Positions 25,595 to 32,439 of a DNA stretch of 64,000 nucleotides are shown here, piece after piece. The DNA comes from an uncultured Acetobacteraceae bacterium. Lineage in GTDB: Bacteria; Pseudomonadota; Alphaproteobacteria; Acetobacterales; Acetobacteraceae. The notes beneath the pieces are model-generated. The model was given only the letters and a program-made list of their open reading frames with translations, was not told the origin of the DNA and made no database searches. Location: assembly GCA_903924985.1 (NCBI GenBank), contig CAIYDT010000046.1:1-64000 (forward strand). The letters run 5' to 3'. Position 1 is the stretch's first letter, and every line of letters starts with the position of its first letter. Made by a program: the position numbers and the translations under genes.

Positions 25595-26755
25595 TCACCC
25601 CTCCCCATCCTTCCGAAACGGACTCTCCTCCGCCAGCGCCCGCATATCCGCCTGAATCCCGGTCCGTTCCTCCACCAGGAAGTTCGCCACCGCCCGCCGC
25701 AACCCCGCATGCGTAATCCAATGCGCGGAATACGTCGGCTTCGGCATATACCCCCGCTGGATCTTATGCCGCCCCTGAGCCCCCGCCTCCACTCGCTGCA
25801 ACCCGTGCTCAATCGCCCAATCGATCGCTCGGTAGTAGCAAAGTTCGAAGTGCAGAAACGGATAATCCCCACGGCAGCCCCAGTTGCGGCCGTACAGTGC
25901 TTCGGACCCCGCCAAATTCAGCGCGCCCGCCACCGGCACCCCGGCATTCTCGGCGTACATCAGAACGACCTTATGACCGAGCCGCTCGCCTAACAAAGAA
26001 AAGAACCGCCGGGTCAGGTAGGCGCTCCCCCATTTCCGGTCCACGGTCGACTGGTAGAACCGATAGAACGCATCCCAATGCGCCTCGGTAATATCCGGCC
26101 CGGACAGAGCATGAAACGTCAACCCGCAAGCATTGGCATCCCGCCGTTCCCGCCGCAGCACTTTGCGCTTGCGGGATGACAGAGCGCTCAGGAACCCCTC
26201 GAAATCGGCGTAACCCTGATTCTCCCAATGGAATTGCATTCCCAGGCGTTGCAACCATCCAGCCTCGCCTAATGCCTCCCATTCGGAGGCAGTACAAAAC
26301 GTCACATGCACCGACGACATGTCCAGAGATGAGCAAGCCTGCTCGAAAGCTCCCGCCAGCGTCGCCACTGACACCCCCGTCCCCGGCCGCCGCAACAGCC
26401 GGGGCCCCGGCACCGGGCTGAACGGCACCGCCACCTGCAATTTGGGATAATAGGCCTGACCGGTGCGCTCGATGGCCTGCGCCCAGCCATGGTCGAACAC
26501 GTATTCGCCGTAGCTGTGGGATTTGGCGTACATCGGGGCCGCCGCCACCACCACGCCATCCGTCGTCCGTAACACCGCGTGTTGCGGCAGCCAGCCGGTG
26601 CGGGCATTCGCCGATCCGCTGTCCTCCAGCGCGCTCAGGAAGGCATGCGACACGAACGGGTTGCCGTCGCCGGCGCAGGCGTCCCAATCCTCGGCCGGGA
26701 TATCCTTAATCGCCTGGTGCAATCTCAGCGTGAGCGTGGCGGAACCATCGGGCAT
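25595..26755 (-). CDS. GNAT/FemAB-like N-acyltransferase (DUF482, peptidoglycan biosynthesis-like)
   Basis: A 386-residue protein of the DUF482 group, which has a FemAB-type double-GNAT fold and is often annotated as peptidoglycan biosynthesis-related. Conserved segments are DGNPFVSHAFLSALEDSG near the N-terminus, SYGEYVFDHGWAQA, SSRKRKVLRRERR and the C-terminal EAGAQGRHKIQRGYMP. ATG 26755 is preceded by GGGGA; an upstream in-frame TTG is less likely. It lies 12 bp downstream of a Rid-family gene and is probably cotranscribed. The acyl donor and acceptor are unknown. Confidence 0.8.
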   Translation of the reverse strand: MPDGSATLTLRLHQAIKDIPAEDWDACAGDGNPFVSHAFLSALEDSGSANARTGWLPQHAVLRTTDGVVVAAAPMYAKSHSYGEYVFDHGWAQAIERTGQAYYPKLQVAVPFSPVPGPRLLRRPGTGVSVATLAGAFEQACSSLDMSSVHVTFCTASEWEALGEAGWLQRLGMQFHWENQGYADFEGFLSALSSRKRKVLRRERRDANACGLTFHALSGPDITEAHWDAFYRFYQSTVDRKWGSAYLTRRFFSLLGERLGHKVVLMYAENAGVPVAGALNLAGSEALYGRNWGCRGDYPFLHFELCYYRAIDWAIEHGLQRVEAGAQGRHKIQRGYMPKPTYSAHWITHAGLRRAVANFLVEERTGIQADMRALAEESPFRKDGEG

Positions 26756-26767
26756 TTTCCCCAAACC

Positions 26768-27238
26768 CTACCAACCGATTTCGAAAAATCCCTCGACCTC
26801 GACGGACGCATCGGCGGGCAATGACGGCACCCCGATGGTACTGCGCGCGTGCCGTCCGTCGTCGCCGAACACAGCCACCGCCAAATCCGAGGCCCCGTTC
26901 ATGACCCGAGCGTGCTCGGTGAACTCCGACGGGGCGGCGATGAACCCGCCCAGCCGCACGATCTTGCGCACGCGGTCCAGATCTCCGTCGCAGGCGGCCT
27001 TCAGGTGCACCAGCACGTTGATGAAGCAGATGCGAGCACCCTCGGTCGCGCGCTCGATGGTCACGCCCCAGCTGACCTTGCCTTTGACGACCACTTCCCC
27101 GTTCACCAGGGGGATCTGGCCCGACACGACCACGAGATTGCCGGTCTTCACCCAGGGCACGTAGTTGGCGATGGGCACGGTGGGGCGAGGCAAAGTGATG
27201 CCGAGTTCCGCCAGTCTTGCCTCGATCCGTCCCGCCAT
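26768..27238 (-). CDS. Rid family protein (YjgF/YER057c/UK114)
   Basis: A 156-residue protein of the longer Rid subfamily. RidA proteins deaminate reactive enamine/imine intermediates, but several subgroups have other or unknown roles. Family features are the core strand GNLVVVSGQIPLVNGEV, the helix IERATEGARICFINVLVHLK, and LVxLGGFIAAPSEF-like and VGVPSLPADASVEVEGFFEI segments near the C-terminus, where the Arg of ARSTIGVPSLP is expected to bind carboxylate. It precedes the FemAB-like gene by 12 bp. Confidence 0.88.
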   Translation of the reverse strand: MAGRIEARLAELGITLPRPTVPIANYVPWVKTGNLVVVSGQIPLVNGEVVVKGKVSWGVTIERATEGARICFINVLVHLKAACDGDLDRVRKIVRLGGFIAAPSEFTEHARVMNGASDLAVAVFGDDGRHARSTIGVPSLPADASVEVEGFFEIGW

Positions 27239-27268: not shown

Positions 27269-28780
27269 CTAACCTGCCTTGGAAATAACCCGCAACGCCC
27301 GTCGTCGTGCGCGGGGCGACGCCTCGGCCGGGAGCTCCAGGGGCAGCAGCGGCGATCCGTCTCGGGCGCCGTCGCCGACGGTGTCGGCTTCCTCGATTTC
27401 TGCCTCGGGGATGTCGCGGCGGCCGAGGTAGTTCGCCGCCAAATGCCGGACTGTGTAGTCCAGCAGGGACGTGGCCTGGCGTACGGCGGGGTCTCCCTCG
27501 ACGGTCCCGGCGGGGCCGAAGCGGGTGAAGGTGAAGGCTTCGACGAAGGCCTCCAGCGGCACTCCGTGCTGCAACCCGAGGCTGACGGCGCTGGCGAAAT
27601 TGTCCATCAGGCCGCGGAACGCCGCGCCTTCCTTGTGCAAAGCGATGAAGATTTCCCCCAGCGCGCCGCCCTCGTATTCGCCGGTGCGCACATACAGCTT
27701 GTGCCCCCCGATCGAGGCCTTCTGCGTGTAGCCGGCCCTGCGAGCGGGCAATTCGGAGCGGGCTGCGACGGGCAATGGTTTGCCGAGGGCGGCGGGGCGG
27801 GCGGGCATCGCCTCGATAAACGGCGCCACCGCGTCGTGCATCAGCGCGTGCTCCGCGGAGCCATATATCGGGAATGGGCTGCCGCCACCGAGGACGGATG
27901 CCAGCGCTTCCTCCCCGGTCATGCCACTGACTCCTAGCCAGGCGCGGGTCGCTTTGGACAGCCCACCCGAAGGCAGCAACGGGGAGAATGCGGGTGCGAT
28001 GCCCCCTGTTTCGACGCCGAGTAGCGCATCGGCCGGGCCGGCGGCCATGATCGCGGTGGTGGCGATATGCCGCAGCCCCTCCACCGCCAGCGCTTGCTGC
28101 CGCGCCGCTCGGGCGGCCTCAGCCAGTCCGGGCACGGGCGTATGGGCGGGCGGCGCCGGCCAGTCCATCGGCGCCGGGCGCATCGCGTCGGTCAGCCGAG
28201 CCATCCGCCCGGAGGCAATATCGGCCCGCCCCCGCAAGATGGCGGCCAAAGCGCGAGCGATATCGCGCGCATTGTCCGATCCGTAGTCGATCCCCAGCGC
28301 GCATAGCAGCCCGGACAGATCGGCCATGGACACCGACAGCCGAGCGCTGGCGGGCGCGGCGAAGCTGAGCGTCAGGACGGCGGTTTCCACCGCTTCCGCG
28401 AAGGCGGCGCAGTCGAACAGCCCCGCGCTATCAATGAAGGCCGGCAGGTTCAGCACGAAGCCCGGGTTGGGATCGGGGCGGAGCTGCCAGACCGATTCGG
28501 TGGGCGCGCCGCGCCGCAGTTGCAGCAGCCAGTGCAGCCGGTCGGCGAAGGACGGCTCCATGCCGGCCTTGGCGGCTTTGTCGGCGACGAAGCGGATCCA
28601 GGCCTCGGCCGCGGCAGGCAGCGTGGTTGCCCCGGCCCCAGGCGCGAGGGCGGCGAGGCCGGCCCCGGCCGCATCCTCCCACGACGCGGGGATGGTCACC
28701 GAACGCACGGGTTCGTCCGGATCGGCGGAGGCGGATGTGCGGCGCAGACGCACGCCATGCCAGGAGCGGTGGATTTTCAT
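27269..28780 (-). CDS. Degenerate class II ribonucleotide reductase paralogue with TSCPD domain (pseudoenzyme)
   Basis: A 503-residue protein related to the C-terminal half of adenosylcobalamin-dependent RNR (NrdJ). RNR-like segments in order are FVLNLPAF near 130, [20 protein letters not shown] near 170 (compare GxADLLALLGIPYDS), and [20 protein letters not shown] then [11 protein letters not shown] near 250 (compare the IAPTGTIS...SSGIEP region). The C-terminal TSCPD domain then contains [20 protein letters not shown] and [20 protein letters not shown]. Only two cysteines are visible (GLFDCAAF and GLLCALG), neither in a redox-pair context, and the N-terminal half is missing. It cannot be an active RNR by known chemistry. 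The intact reading frame suggests a retained regulatory or nucleotide-sensing role. It is transcribed upstream of the Rid gene. Confidence 0.75.
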
Positions 28781-29582: not shown

Positions 29583-29611
29583 TTGTCAGGCGGTCTCTGA
29601 GGTGTGATACG
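29583..29611 (+). promoter_or_regulatory. Candidate sigma70-type promoter for dgcZ
   Basis: TTGTCA at 29583-29588 and GATACG at 29606-29611 are separated by 17 bp. A small dyad, CCCTG...CAGGG, at 29566-29582 directly abuts the -35 element and could be an operator. The match to consensus is partial. Confidence 0.3.
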
Positions 29612-29696
29612 TCACTGCTGTAAATACGTTGTATCGGCAAGCCTGCCGGGCCTTCACCTGTTCCAACCCAGCCGAAGAGCAAATCAGAGAGGACCA

Positions 29697-30581
29697 ATGG
29701 ACTCAACTGTGATGCGGACGGCGTTGGCGCAACTCGACCAGGCGCTGTTCAGCCACGAGCAATGGTCCGAAGCGATCTATAGCACGCTGATCTGCCGTCT
29801 GCCGCCGGACGAGCGGGACGTGGATCGGGATGCCCACCGAAAATGCCGCTTCGGGCAGTGGTATTATGGATCGGGGTCTCTGACGCTCCACAATCATCCT
29901 GGCTTTGTCGAGATAGCGGTTGAACATGAGCGAATGCATCAGTTCGCGGCAACGTTGCTGCGGGCTTCCACTGATAATGTGCCGATCTCGCTCCATGACT
30001 ACGAGCGCTTCGTCGCCGCCATGAAGCGCATGCGGCTCGAGGCCCTTACGATGAAACGAGAGCTTGAGGATTCGCTCAACAACCTCGATCCATTGACCGA
30101 CGCCACAAACCGGACCGGTATGTTAACCAGACTTCGCGAACAGTTGGAACTCGTCAAGCGCGGGGTGCATTCCTGCTCCGTCGCCATGATGGATGTGGAC
30201 TACTTCAAGAAGGTGAACGACACCTATGGCCATGGTATGGGGGATCAGGTCCTCGCTGCCTTCTCTCGCTATGTGATCGCCCATCTGAGGCCCTACGACA
30301 ATTTCTTCCGCTATGGCGGCGAGGAGTTCGTGATCTGCGCGCCAAACGCGGATCTTGCGACCAGCCAAGGGCTTTTGGAGCGGCTGCGCGTGGAACTCGC
30401 CTCGATCCCGTTTCGACCTGAGGGTAGGCCACCCTTCCATGTTACTGCGTCATTCGGCCTGACGCTGCTTGATCCCGATCTGTCGGTCGAACAATCGATC
30501 GACCGGGCGGACAAGGCGCTCTATGCCGCGAAATCCGCCGGCCGTAACCGCATCGTGGTCTGGACTCCGTCCATGTTGTAA
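29697..30581 (+). CDS. dgcZ: Zinc-sensing diguanylate cyclase DgcZ (CZB-GGDEF)
   Basis: Makes cyclic di-GMP from two GTP, with activity inhibited by zinc in the characterised E. coli protein (296 residues; this one has 294). The N-terminal CZB domain has all four zinc ligands: His20, Cys50 in CRFGQWYY, and His77 and His81 in VEHERMHQF. These sit two positions before the E. coli ligands (22/52/79/83). The C-terminal GGDEF domain has the active-site motif GGEEF (207-211) and the product-inhibition RxxD site RPYD (198-201). GAGAGGA precedes the ATG. It is transcribed alone after a long intergenic region. There are no membrane segments, so it acts in the cytosol. Confidence 0.93.
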   Translation: MDSTVMRTALAQLDQALFSHEQWSEAIYSTLICRLPPDERDVDRDAHRKCRFGQWYYGSGSLTLHNHPGFVEIAVEHERMHQFAATLLRASTDNVPISLHDYERFVAAMKRMRLEALTMKRELEDSLNNLDPLTDATNRTGMLTRLREQLELVKRGVHSCSVAMMDVDYFKKVNDTYGHGMGDQVLAAFSRYVIAHLRPYDNFFRYGGEEFVICAPNADLATSQGLLERLRVELASIPFRPEGRPPFHVTASFGLTLLDPDLSVEQSIDRADKALYAAKSAGRNRIVVWTPSML

Positions 30582-31328: not shown

Positions 31329-31808
31329 ATGGCAAGCCGCGGCATCGCGGAGGTTATCACCGGCGCCGTTGTGTTGCTCGTCGCTGCCGGGTTCCTCGGC
31401 TTCGCGGTGGCGCATTCCGGGCGCACCGCCAGCACCGGCTACGACCTCACCGCGAAGTTCGACCACATCGACGGGCTGAACGTCGGCGCCGACGTGCGCA
31501 TCGCCGGGGTGAAGGTCGGCACCGTGGATGCGCAGCGAATCGACCCCGCGACCTACCTCGCGGTCGTCACCCTCAAGATCGGGACCGGCATCGAGATCCC
31601 CAAGGACACCAGCGCCGAGATCACCAGCGAGAGCCTGCTGGGCGGCAAGTATCTATCCCTGACACCCGGCGCCGACAGCGTCATGTTGAAACCCGGCCAG
31701 GCGATCACCATTACCCAGTCGGCGGTGAGCCTGGAGCAGCTTTTGGGAAAGTTCATCTTCAGCGTCACCAGCCTGAACAACAGCAAACCGGCTGGGGCCC
31801 CGAAGTGA
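31329..31808 (+). CDS. mlaD: Outer membrane lipid asymmetry protein MlaD
   Basis: A 159-residue periplasmic MCE protein anchored by one N-terminal helix (about 10-30). In the Mla pathway it forms a hexameric ring that passes phospholipids between the MlaFEDB complex and MlaC. The MCE core has FDHIDGLNVGADVRIAGVKV and the typical ITSESLLGGKYLSL. Its size and single MCE domain match MlaD rather than longer MCE proteins. The other Mla components are not adjacent, but a separate coupled Mla-like operon with its own longer MCE protein lies at 53.2-56.6 kb. The stop overlaps the next gene. Confidence 0.92.
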   Translation: MASRGIAEVITGAVVLLVAAGFLGFAVAHSGRTASTGYDLTAKFDHIDGLNVGADVRIAGVKVGTVDAQRIDPATYLAVVTLKIGTGIEIPKDTSAEITSESLLGGKYLSLTPGADSVMLKPGQAITITQSAVSLEQLLGKFIFSVTSLNNSKPAGAPK

Positions 31809-32026
31809 CCGCATCCCCCCCAAAAATCTGGCCCGGCGCCGATGGCACCCCGGTTTCCTGCCGGGAGAAGCTGAAAATGCTGGCCGACAACCACGCCGAA
31901 CTGGCGCAGACCATGCAGGATACGTTCGAGGACGCGGTCCTGATGGGCGTCGACGAGCAGGCCATGCGCGGCGTGCTGCTCGCCATGATCGAGGGGCTGG
32001 AGTCACCCAAGCGCGCCGCCCCATGA
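31805..32026 (+). CDS. Hypothetical protein, 73 aa
   Basis: GTG at 31805 overlaps the mlaD stop (GTGA), and its own stop overlaps the next ATG (ATGA), so it is tightly coupled on both sides and very probably real. The protein is soluble, with an acidic helical middle (ELAQTMQDTFEDAVLMGVDE) and no recognised domain. Position in the NDUFA12-mlaD-DUF2155 run is the only functional hint. Confidence 0.7.
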   Translation: MTASPPKIWPGADGTPVSCREKLKMLADNHAELAQTMQDTFEDAVLMGVDEQAMRGVLLAMIEGLESPKRAAP

Positions 32027-32439
32027 GGTTTCTTCTCCTTGTGCTGCTGGCGACCATCTCCGTCGCTCGTGCCGAGGATCCAATCGTGGCGACACCGTTG
32101 CCGCCGGTCGATGCGACGGAGGCTCAGGCTCCACCGCCGCCCGTCCCTTGGCTTCCCAAGAACACCGCCCAGGTGCAGGCGCTGGACAAGGTAAATGCCC
32201 GAGGCTCGCTGCTGACGATCAAGGTGGGTCAGTCGGCGGTCTTCGGGTCGCTCACCATCGCGGTGAAGGCGTGCAGTGTGCGCCCGCCCGACGTGCCGGC
32301 CGATGCCGCGGCGTTTCTGACGGTCACGGACAAGAACCCCGACGCGCCGGGCTTCTCCGGCTGGATGCTGAAATCCACCCCTTCGGTATCGATGCTGGAA
32401 CACCCGATTTACGACGTGCGGATCGTCGGCTGCATCTGA
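32023..32439 (+). CDS. DUF2155 domain-containing periplasmic protein
   Basis: A 138-residue exported protein. The signal peptide MRFLLLVLLATISVARA is followed by a Pro-rich stretch and the DUF2155 domain, with NTAQVQALDKVNARGSLLTI, AVKACSVRPPD and APGFSGWMLKSTPSVSML. Two cysteines (in KACSV and at the penultimate VGCI) could form a disulfide. The family is alphaproteobacterial, of unknown function, and usually encoded near mlaD and NDUFA12, as here. ATG 32023 overlaps the preceding stop. Confidence 0.85.
   Translation: MRFLLLVLLATISVARAEDPIVATPLPPVDATEAQAPPPPVPWLPKNTAQVQALDKVNARGSLLTIKVGQSAVFGSLTIAVKACSVRPPDVPADAAAFLTVTDKNPDAPGFSGWMLKSTPSVSMLEHPIYDVRIVGCI

Follow-up and report, generated by a model that had tools for sequence, protein, structure and literature searches.

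A reduced nrdJ orthologue without catalytic cysteines in the Acetobacteraceae, with a likely non-catalytic role

Non-catalytic large subunits of ribonucleotide reductase (RNR) are known from herpesviruses, e.g., M45; these belong to eukaryotic viruses, are class I chains and are not known to carry a TSCPD domain. For the class II enzymes (NrdJ), an IscU-like domain has been described in the C-termini of the long forms, with no role reported by 2022 and oligomerisation suggested in the sections consulted of PMC9669993, an article in which the term TSCPD does not occur (0 occurrences). In one NrdJ, a C-terminal cysteine-rich domain drives dATP/dGTP-induced oligomers (PMC5704485, sections consulted). 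The portions seen of PMC9531940 and PMC12041372 (Gluconobacter knockout study) contain nothing on a reduced NrdJ protein, and in the open-access PMC literature, as far as titles and abstracts were covered, no bacterial RNR turned pseudoenzyme was found in print.

The locus and its relation to long nrdJ

The window is the whole 64-kb stretch of DNA analysed here (64,000 nucleotides, from an uncultured Acetobacteraceae bacterium). An earlier sequence-only reading of it described one gene as a catalytically dead class II RNR paralogue retaining the TSCPD domain. The gene, its parts and its neighbours are:

27269..28780, minus strand: reduced nrdJ orthologue, 503 aa (ATG at 28780, stop at 27269)
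28487..28699, minus strand: N-terminal-domain remnant of NrdJ, residues 28-98 (64-179 of the L162 frame), from hhalign with a deep alignment, weak with a shallower one
27779..28453, minus strand: shrunken second half of the RNR barrel, residues about 110-334, after the deleted active-site segment (profile alignment, AF2 fold, PDB matches)
27389..27778, minus strand: TSCPD domain, residues about 335-464 (Pfam, profile alignment, separate TSCPD model)
26768..27238, minus strand: Rid (YjgF) family gene, directly downstream (ORF list and Pfam)
25595..26764, minus strand: FemAB_like (PF04339) gene, third in the probable operon (ORF list and Pfam)
31329..31808, plus strand: MlaD-domain gene, divergent upstream marker of the nrdJ locus (comparison of loci)
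32023..32439, plus strand: DUF2155 gene, divergent upstream marker of the nrdJ locus (comparison of loci)

The ORF check bore out the intact frame of 503 codons with only two Cys that had been claimed for 27269-28780 (the two residues lie within FDCAAF and LLCALG), and its start ATG is common to the close relatives. As had also been stated, the gene is upstream of a Rid and a FemAB-like gene, both of which follow on the same strand; the three probably form one operon. The TSCPD domain, described as kept whole, exceeds the gathering cut-off in the window protein (PF12637 on residues 351-448, E 9.6e-10, 39.1 bits vs. 22.8), and is matched by 47/47 aligned members at E<=0.5. The barrel model PF02867 stays below its cut-off in the window protein (13.5 vs. 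23.9 bits); every one of the 47 members of alignment A1 matches it at E<=0.5, the lowest value being 1.8e-7. With the NCBIfam model of the long B12-RNR (NF005736), the window protein scored 215.6 bits (E 9.1e-64), the curated cut-off of 1737 not being reached.

Between the reduced nrdJ and mlaD, the window holds a gene for a diguanylate cyclase (GGDEF) with a CZB domain (29604-30581, plus strand). The spacing of the reduced nrdJ and mlaD is 2.5 kb here vs. at most 0.7 kb in 30 other family loci, so the GGDEF/CZB gene looks like an insertion. The tRNA and Rfam scans of the 64-kb window were empty, and a plasmid search returned 16 records, none covering 80% of the protein.

In all 31 family loci compared (L177-L201, L242-L246 and the window; six are from g66/g111), mlaD was found upstream, and Rid adjoins the gene in 24 of them (in two of these, in a stop-to-stop frame overlapping the gene); the remaining seven are without Rid, among them L183, which lies at a contig end. 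These neighbours also accompany intact long nrdJ: among 14 such loci, each from a different non-Acetobacteraceae family, nine share at least one neighbour with the reduced gene. The genes mlaD and DUF2155 lie upstream in the same divergent arrangement in seven of them (L162, L163, L168-L171 and L175), L173 has DUF2155 and Rid as neighbours, L166 has Rid and FemAB, and five share none (L164, L165, L167, L172 and L174). The outgroup that a neighbour-gene tree places closest to the family is L175, whose NrdJ is intact as far as the contig extends (SH-aLRT 88; a quick tree with SH-aLRT values only, from which seven loci were left out for want of neighbours and in which the outgroup is not one clade). 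On this synteny (mlaD/DUF2155, Rid and FemAB common to intact nrdJ in 9/14 loci), the label "paralogue" is rejected, and the window gene is better called an nrdJ orthologue, apparently at the ancestral chromosomal locus.

Deleted and retained parts of the protein

In a profile alignment of the members with 13 long alphaproteobacterial NrdJs, residues 110-503 correspond to L162 515-1178 (hhalign E 5.7e-65); the barrel part is broken by long gaps, and the TSCPD domain is nearly identical throughout. Residues 28-98 are colinear with the NrdJ N-terminus (L162 64-179) at an hhalign score of 32.9, the best of 60 column shuffles reaching 18.3, when an NrdJ alignment of 63 sequences (many from viral contigs) was used and five g66/g111 rows were added; the shallower alignment gave a weak signal (25.2 over 17 columns, against 18.6 for the best of 30 shuffles), and the Pfam class II N-domain model PF08471 matched none of the 47 members at E<=0.5. 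The order of parts is the N-domain, a large deletion (about L162 180-514), the second barrel half with deletions, and TSCPD, with no zinc finger. The sequence-only reading had the N-terminal half missing, which does not agree with the alignment of residues 28-98 (32.9 vs. 18.3 shuffled); with this part of the N-terminus still in place, the principal loss lies inside the protein, and a simple N-terminal truncation was rejected.

The reported absence of the radical and redox cysteines was borne out in the non-redundant relatives. C222, C499 (NPCSE) and C510, each present in 13/13 long NrdJs, sit in the deleted middle, and the C-terminal Cys cluster is likewise present in all 13. Among 93 non-redundant members (median length 506, range 444-556 residues, counted from the start column of the window protein), neither the finger-loop motif NPC[SG]E nor a CxxC in the last 60 residues (redox cysteines/zinc finger) was found in any. 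No Cys column exceeds 26/93 members and eight members are without any Cys, so a Cys-radical or Cys-metal function was rejected, and the metal binding once considered as a role is disfavoured in its Cys-based form. Nucleotide sensing, another role considered, is disfavoured via the normal specificity site, which we take to lie in the NrdJ segment deleted here. Residues invariant in the 47 aligned members include D22, R26, W34, R89, Y166, E257 and T258.

The AF2 model of the window protein is confident for residues 1-333, not for 334-503. The RNR-like barrel on which the sequence-only reading had been staked was recovered in part: the best 50 of 192 PDB matches at E<=10 are all RNRs, the top two among those listed are Rhodobacter sphaeroides RNRs, and the best of them (E 6.8e-9) has a TM score to the query of 0.32, the confident fold being a half barrel. 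A separate TSCPD model, based on a more diverse alignment, has a confident core of three strands and then helices; a Foldseek search of it against the PDB gave no match at E<=0.001, with IscU entries only at E 0.94 and 1.6. TSCPD is presumably the same domain as the IscU-like one known from the C-termini of long class II enzymes.

TSCPD matches also occur in viral contigs. One of them (L247, 2939-3292) lies in a 118-aa frame near a terminase-like frame (by eye), and 16 of the 80 TSCPD rows of viral loci L248-L327 are in frames of only 135-223 aa (some perhaps truncated where the contig stops), which hints that phages may encode TSCPD as a protein of its own. For six of the 80 rows, the frame measures 1429-1673 aa and exceeds in length the long NrdJs examined here; inteins or extra domains may account for this.

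Distribution, parallel reductions and selection

A first survey found matches in 50/59 genomes: all 35 of the window's own family (a few in pieces on separate contigs) and 15/24 of other families, the latter mainly via TSCPD and in 13 cases in frames of 1128-1327 aa. In a draw of 297 Acetobacteraceae genomes, 282 match at E<=1e-10, representing 87/91 genera (276/291 among the high-quality genomes of the same draw; 20/21 among small family genomes of 2.1 Mb or less), and in an order-level draw at E<=1e-5, 293/299 match, the genomes among those listed being all Acetobacteraceae. Scanning GTDB yielded 60 loci; most of their titles name Acetobacteraceae, Rhodopila or Rhodospirillales, and a few name other taxa. 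Because 282/297 family genomes match at E<=1e-10, the gene is far beyond a chance ORF. The one-off decay that would speak against a retained gene was not seen (0/93 relatives keep the finger-loop motif or the C-terminal CxxC); the reduced gene is neither a one-off nor a recent decay.

Of the 15 family genomes that the search at E<=1e-10 missed, six hold diverged forms (G097, G142, G165, G187, G205 and G223). In four others, three g82 genomes (G113, G174 and G244) and G117 (g86), mlaD and DUF2155 are present with no relative of the gene nearby; in the g82 loci, the frames in divergent position beside mlaD are threonine synthase or ketoacyl synthases. Since these loci keep the neighbours without the gene, the protein is dispensable in some lineages. 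No mlaD was found in G217 and G248, and in G312 and G270 mlaD is at a contig end, so the apparent absence in these four may be an assembly gap; the fifteenth genome is G211. G244 has a weak match in a frame of 1069 aa, and G312 has one in a frame of 779 aa. In one g82 genome (L337, 8085-11918), the reduced gene is absent and Rid and FemAB stand behind a trehalose-phosphatase gene, a loss with rearrangement. The six genomes of g66 and g111, five of which have the frame complete, keep the N-domain and the barrel remnant and show no recognisable TSCPD; their six rows form one clade (99) among the basal family branches of the neighbour-gene tree, the branch order of which is not firm. The TSCPD is diverged in rows such as L195.

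The TSCPD query has matches in 103 genomes of a class-wide sample of 162; in 97 of these, the matching frame is 1128-1364 aa long (one of these long NrdJs, G422, is only partly matched, at a contig end; G050 was scored as a miss because its contig ends before the TSCPD, and its genome holds a long NrdJ). The other six matches are in frames of 278-667 aa, three from the window's own family and one each from f9 (L176), f90 (L240) and f91 (L241). L176 has TSCPD and the C-terminal Cys cluster and no barrel, L240 has TSCPD without barrel and without Cys cluster, and L241 has a partial barrel and TSCPD; L176 and L241 share the mlaD and Rid neighbours, and L240 has only a weak DUF2155 match. As L176 keeps the Cys cluster that was lost in the window family, its reduction was presumably separate; those of L240 and L241 may be independent too. 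Thus at least one, and perhaps three, other lineages reduced NrdJ separately. Neither end is always kept, because g66/g111 lost the TSCPD while L176 and L240 keep it without the barrel. The idea that TSCPD alone is the retained function was rejected, since g66/g111 without TSCPD still keep the gene; neither module alone explains retention.

In the same 162 genomes, NrdB is present in all six with a reduced form vs. 29/97 with a long NrdJ vs. 40/59 without a TSCPD match (Fisher test of reduced vs. long, 0.0011; 0.010 with the window's own family counted once, other kinship being ignored). As 29/97 long-NrdJ genomes and 40/59 TSCPD-free genomes have NrdB, NrdAB alone does not cause reduction, and simple loss is common. 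Within the family, NrdB was found in 33/35 genomes (the two misses are 80% and 68% complete), and class I-type chains came up in a barrel search. At least 10/35 family genomes, the window genome included, encode a further one-piece RNR large chain, so the reduced protein cannot depend on such a second RNR family-wide. The window genome has a class I-type large chain (C65), NrdB (C103) and a second NrdJ on contig C7 (L003, 252-2219), the answer to the proposed check for an intact nrdJ elsewhere in the genome; this copy is apparently intact in the part read, with the NPCGE motif, TSCPD and the C-terminal Cys cluster. It could be foreign, because the genome is 7.5% contaminated, yet 9/34 other family genomes have a one-piece RNR chain.

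Selection on the gene, likewise proposed earlier, agrees with a whole-gene dN/dS of 0.08-0.15 against six near relatives. With the Nei-Gojobori method on these GC-rich genes, 1000 of 1485 pairs passed the dS limits (485 were dropped), and over them median dN/dS is 0.17 for TSCPD, 0.40 for the N-domain, 0.40 for the barrel and 0.34 for the whole protein; the medians of the neighbours are 0.25 (Rid), 0.20 (FemAB) and 0.34 (mlaD), from fewer pairs (654-824) and stop-to-stop frames. Constraint on the N-domain and barrel is moderate, because their medians exceed those of Rid, FemAB and mlaD.

Possible roles and comparison with known systems

From the sequence-only reading there stand the NrdJ origin, the lost catalytic parts, the TSCPD domain and selection; "paralogue" and the missing N-terminal half do not. 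A non-catalytic role of the reduced NrdJ is likely, and we consider it somewhat probable, on balance, that the gene is a reduced nrdJ orthologue kept under selection as a non-catalytic, partner-binding scaffold. The ancestor of the Acetobacteraceae would have come to rely on class I NrdAB with nrdJ retained, and in-frame deletions would have removed the redox zinc finger, the first barrel half together with its active-site and finger-loop cysteines, and some of the second. The remainder (N-domain, half barrel and TSCPD) still folds and has been under purifying selection throughout the family. Such a scaffold would bind its partner via TSCPD and the barrel remnant, the partner being probably a protein of deoxynucleotide metabolism, e.g., NrdA or a former partner of NrdJ. 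The order of events, the NrdAB takeover as their cause and the partner-binding role are what we infer from these data; given the parts consulted of PMC9669993 and PMC5704485, a scaffold appears to be the most economical reading rather than a proven one. Retention suggests that part of class II RNR does a job unrelated to the known chemistry. More tentatively, and with the odds somewhat against it, the TSCPD/IscU-like domain and the half barrel may carry a second, reduction-independent function that alone keeps the gene after the NrdAB takeover, lineages trimming nrdJ to different cores; the remnants would then be natural deletion mutants that map a hidden function.

Other readings have to be weighed against the scaffold. 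The reduced protein could be a regulator of class I NrdAB, its barrel remnant and TSCPD docking on NrdA and modulating oligomeric state or activity. The presence of NrdB in every reduced-form genome, compared with 29/97 long-NrdJ genomes (Fisher 0.0011, or 0.010 with the family counted once), is consistent with such a regulator, as is the report that, in one class II RNR, dATP/dGTP-induced oligomers are driven by a cysteine-rich C-terminal domain (PMC5704485, sections consulted). We nevertheless regard it as rather unlikely, because the reduced cases are few and phylogenetically linked, no single module is common to them, and 40/75 NrdB genomes are without a TSCPD match. Less probable again is that the protein is the third member of one pathway with the Rid and FemAB-like enzymes, its NrdJ past being incidental: the three genes are closely spaced on the same strand in the window, and Rid, which adjoins the gene in 24/31 family loci, also follows the reduced L176 and L241 of other families, but it follows intact long nrdJ as well (L166 and L173), so the neighbourhood seems older than the reduction; Rid and FemAB moreover persist without the gene in L337, and 7/31 loci are without Rid (L183 being at a contig end).

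That the half barrel was remodelled into an enzyme with a new, cysteine-independent activity strikes us as improbable: residues 1-333 do fold confidently in the AF2 model and hold residues invariant in 47 members, but RNRs make up all of the best 50 of 192 PDB matches, and the segment with the RNR active site has been deleted. Slow decay, i.e., a long-lived functionless remnant kept open by chance, is the reading we find hardest to credit; the losses in g82 and g86, the missing TSCPD in g66/g111 and the diverged one in rows such as L195 would fit it, but dN/dS is low, the gene is near-universal in the family, including 20/21 genomes of 2.1 Mb or less, and it shares TSCPD residues with long NrdJ.

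Among known systems, the long NrdJ (NF005736) has, like the window protein, the colinear N-domain, the second barrel half and TSCPD, with neighbours shared in 9/14 loci; the window protein differs in being without the active-site and finger-loop cysteines and the redox zinc finger and in having less than half the length. The IscU-like domain, as presented in the sections consulted of PMC9669993, resembles TSCPD in its position after the barrel and its alpha+beta fold, whereas there it is treated solely within class II enzymes, and here IscU is only among the non-significant Foldseek matches. The split class II subunit NrdJb of the same source (sections consulted) is, like the window protein, a separate protein with an IscU-like domain, and L176, with TSCPD and Cys cluster, is the remnant most like it; NrdJb serves the catalytic NrdJa, in contrast to the window protein, which has no zinc finger (CxxC in 0/93) and for which the barrel search brought up no such partner chain. 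A near-universal family gene that keeps a presumed IscU-like domain without the chemistry makes the role of that domain testable in tractable acetic-acid bacteria, and, if the account given here is true, the protein would be a bacterial RNR turned pseudoenzyme. It would then be comparable to the M45-type subunits of herpesviruses, in which, too, a dead RNR large chain is kept for another job.
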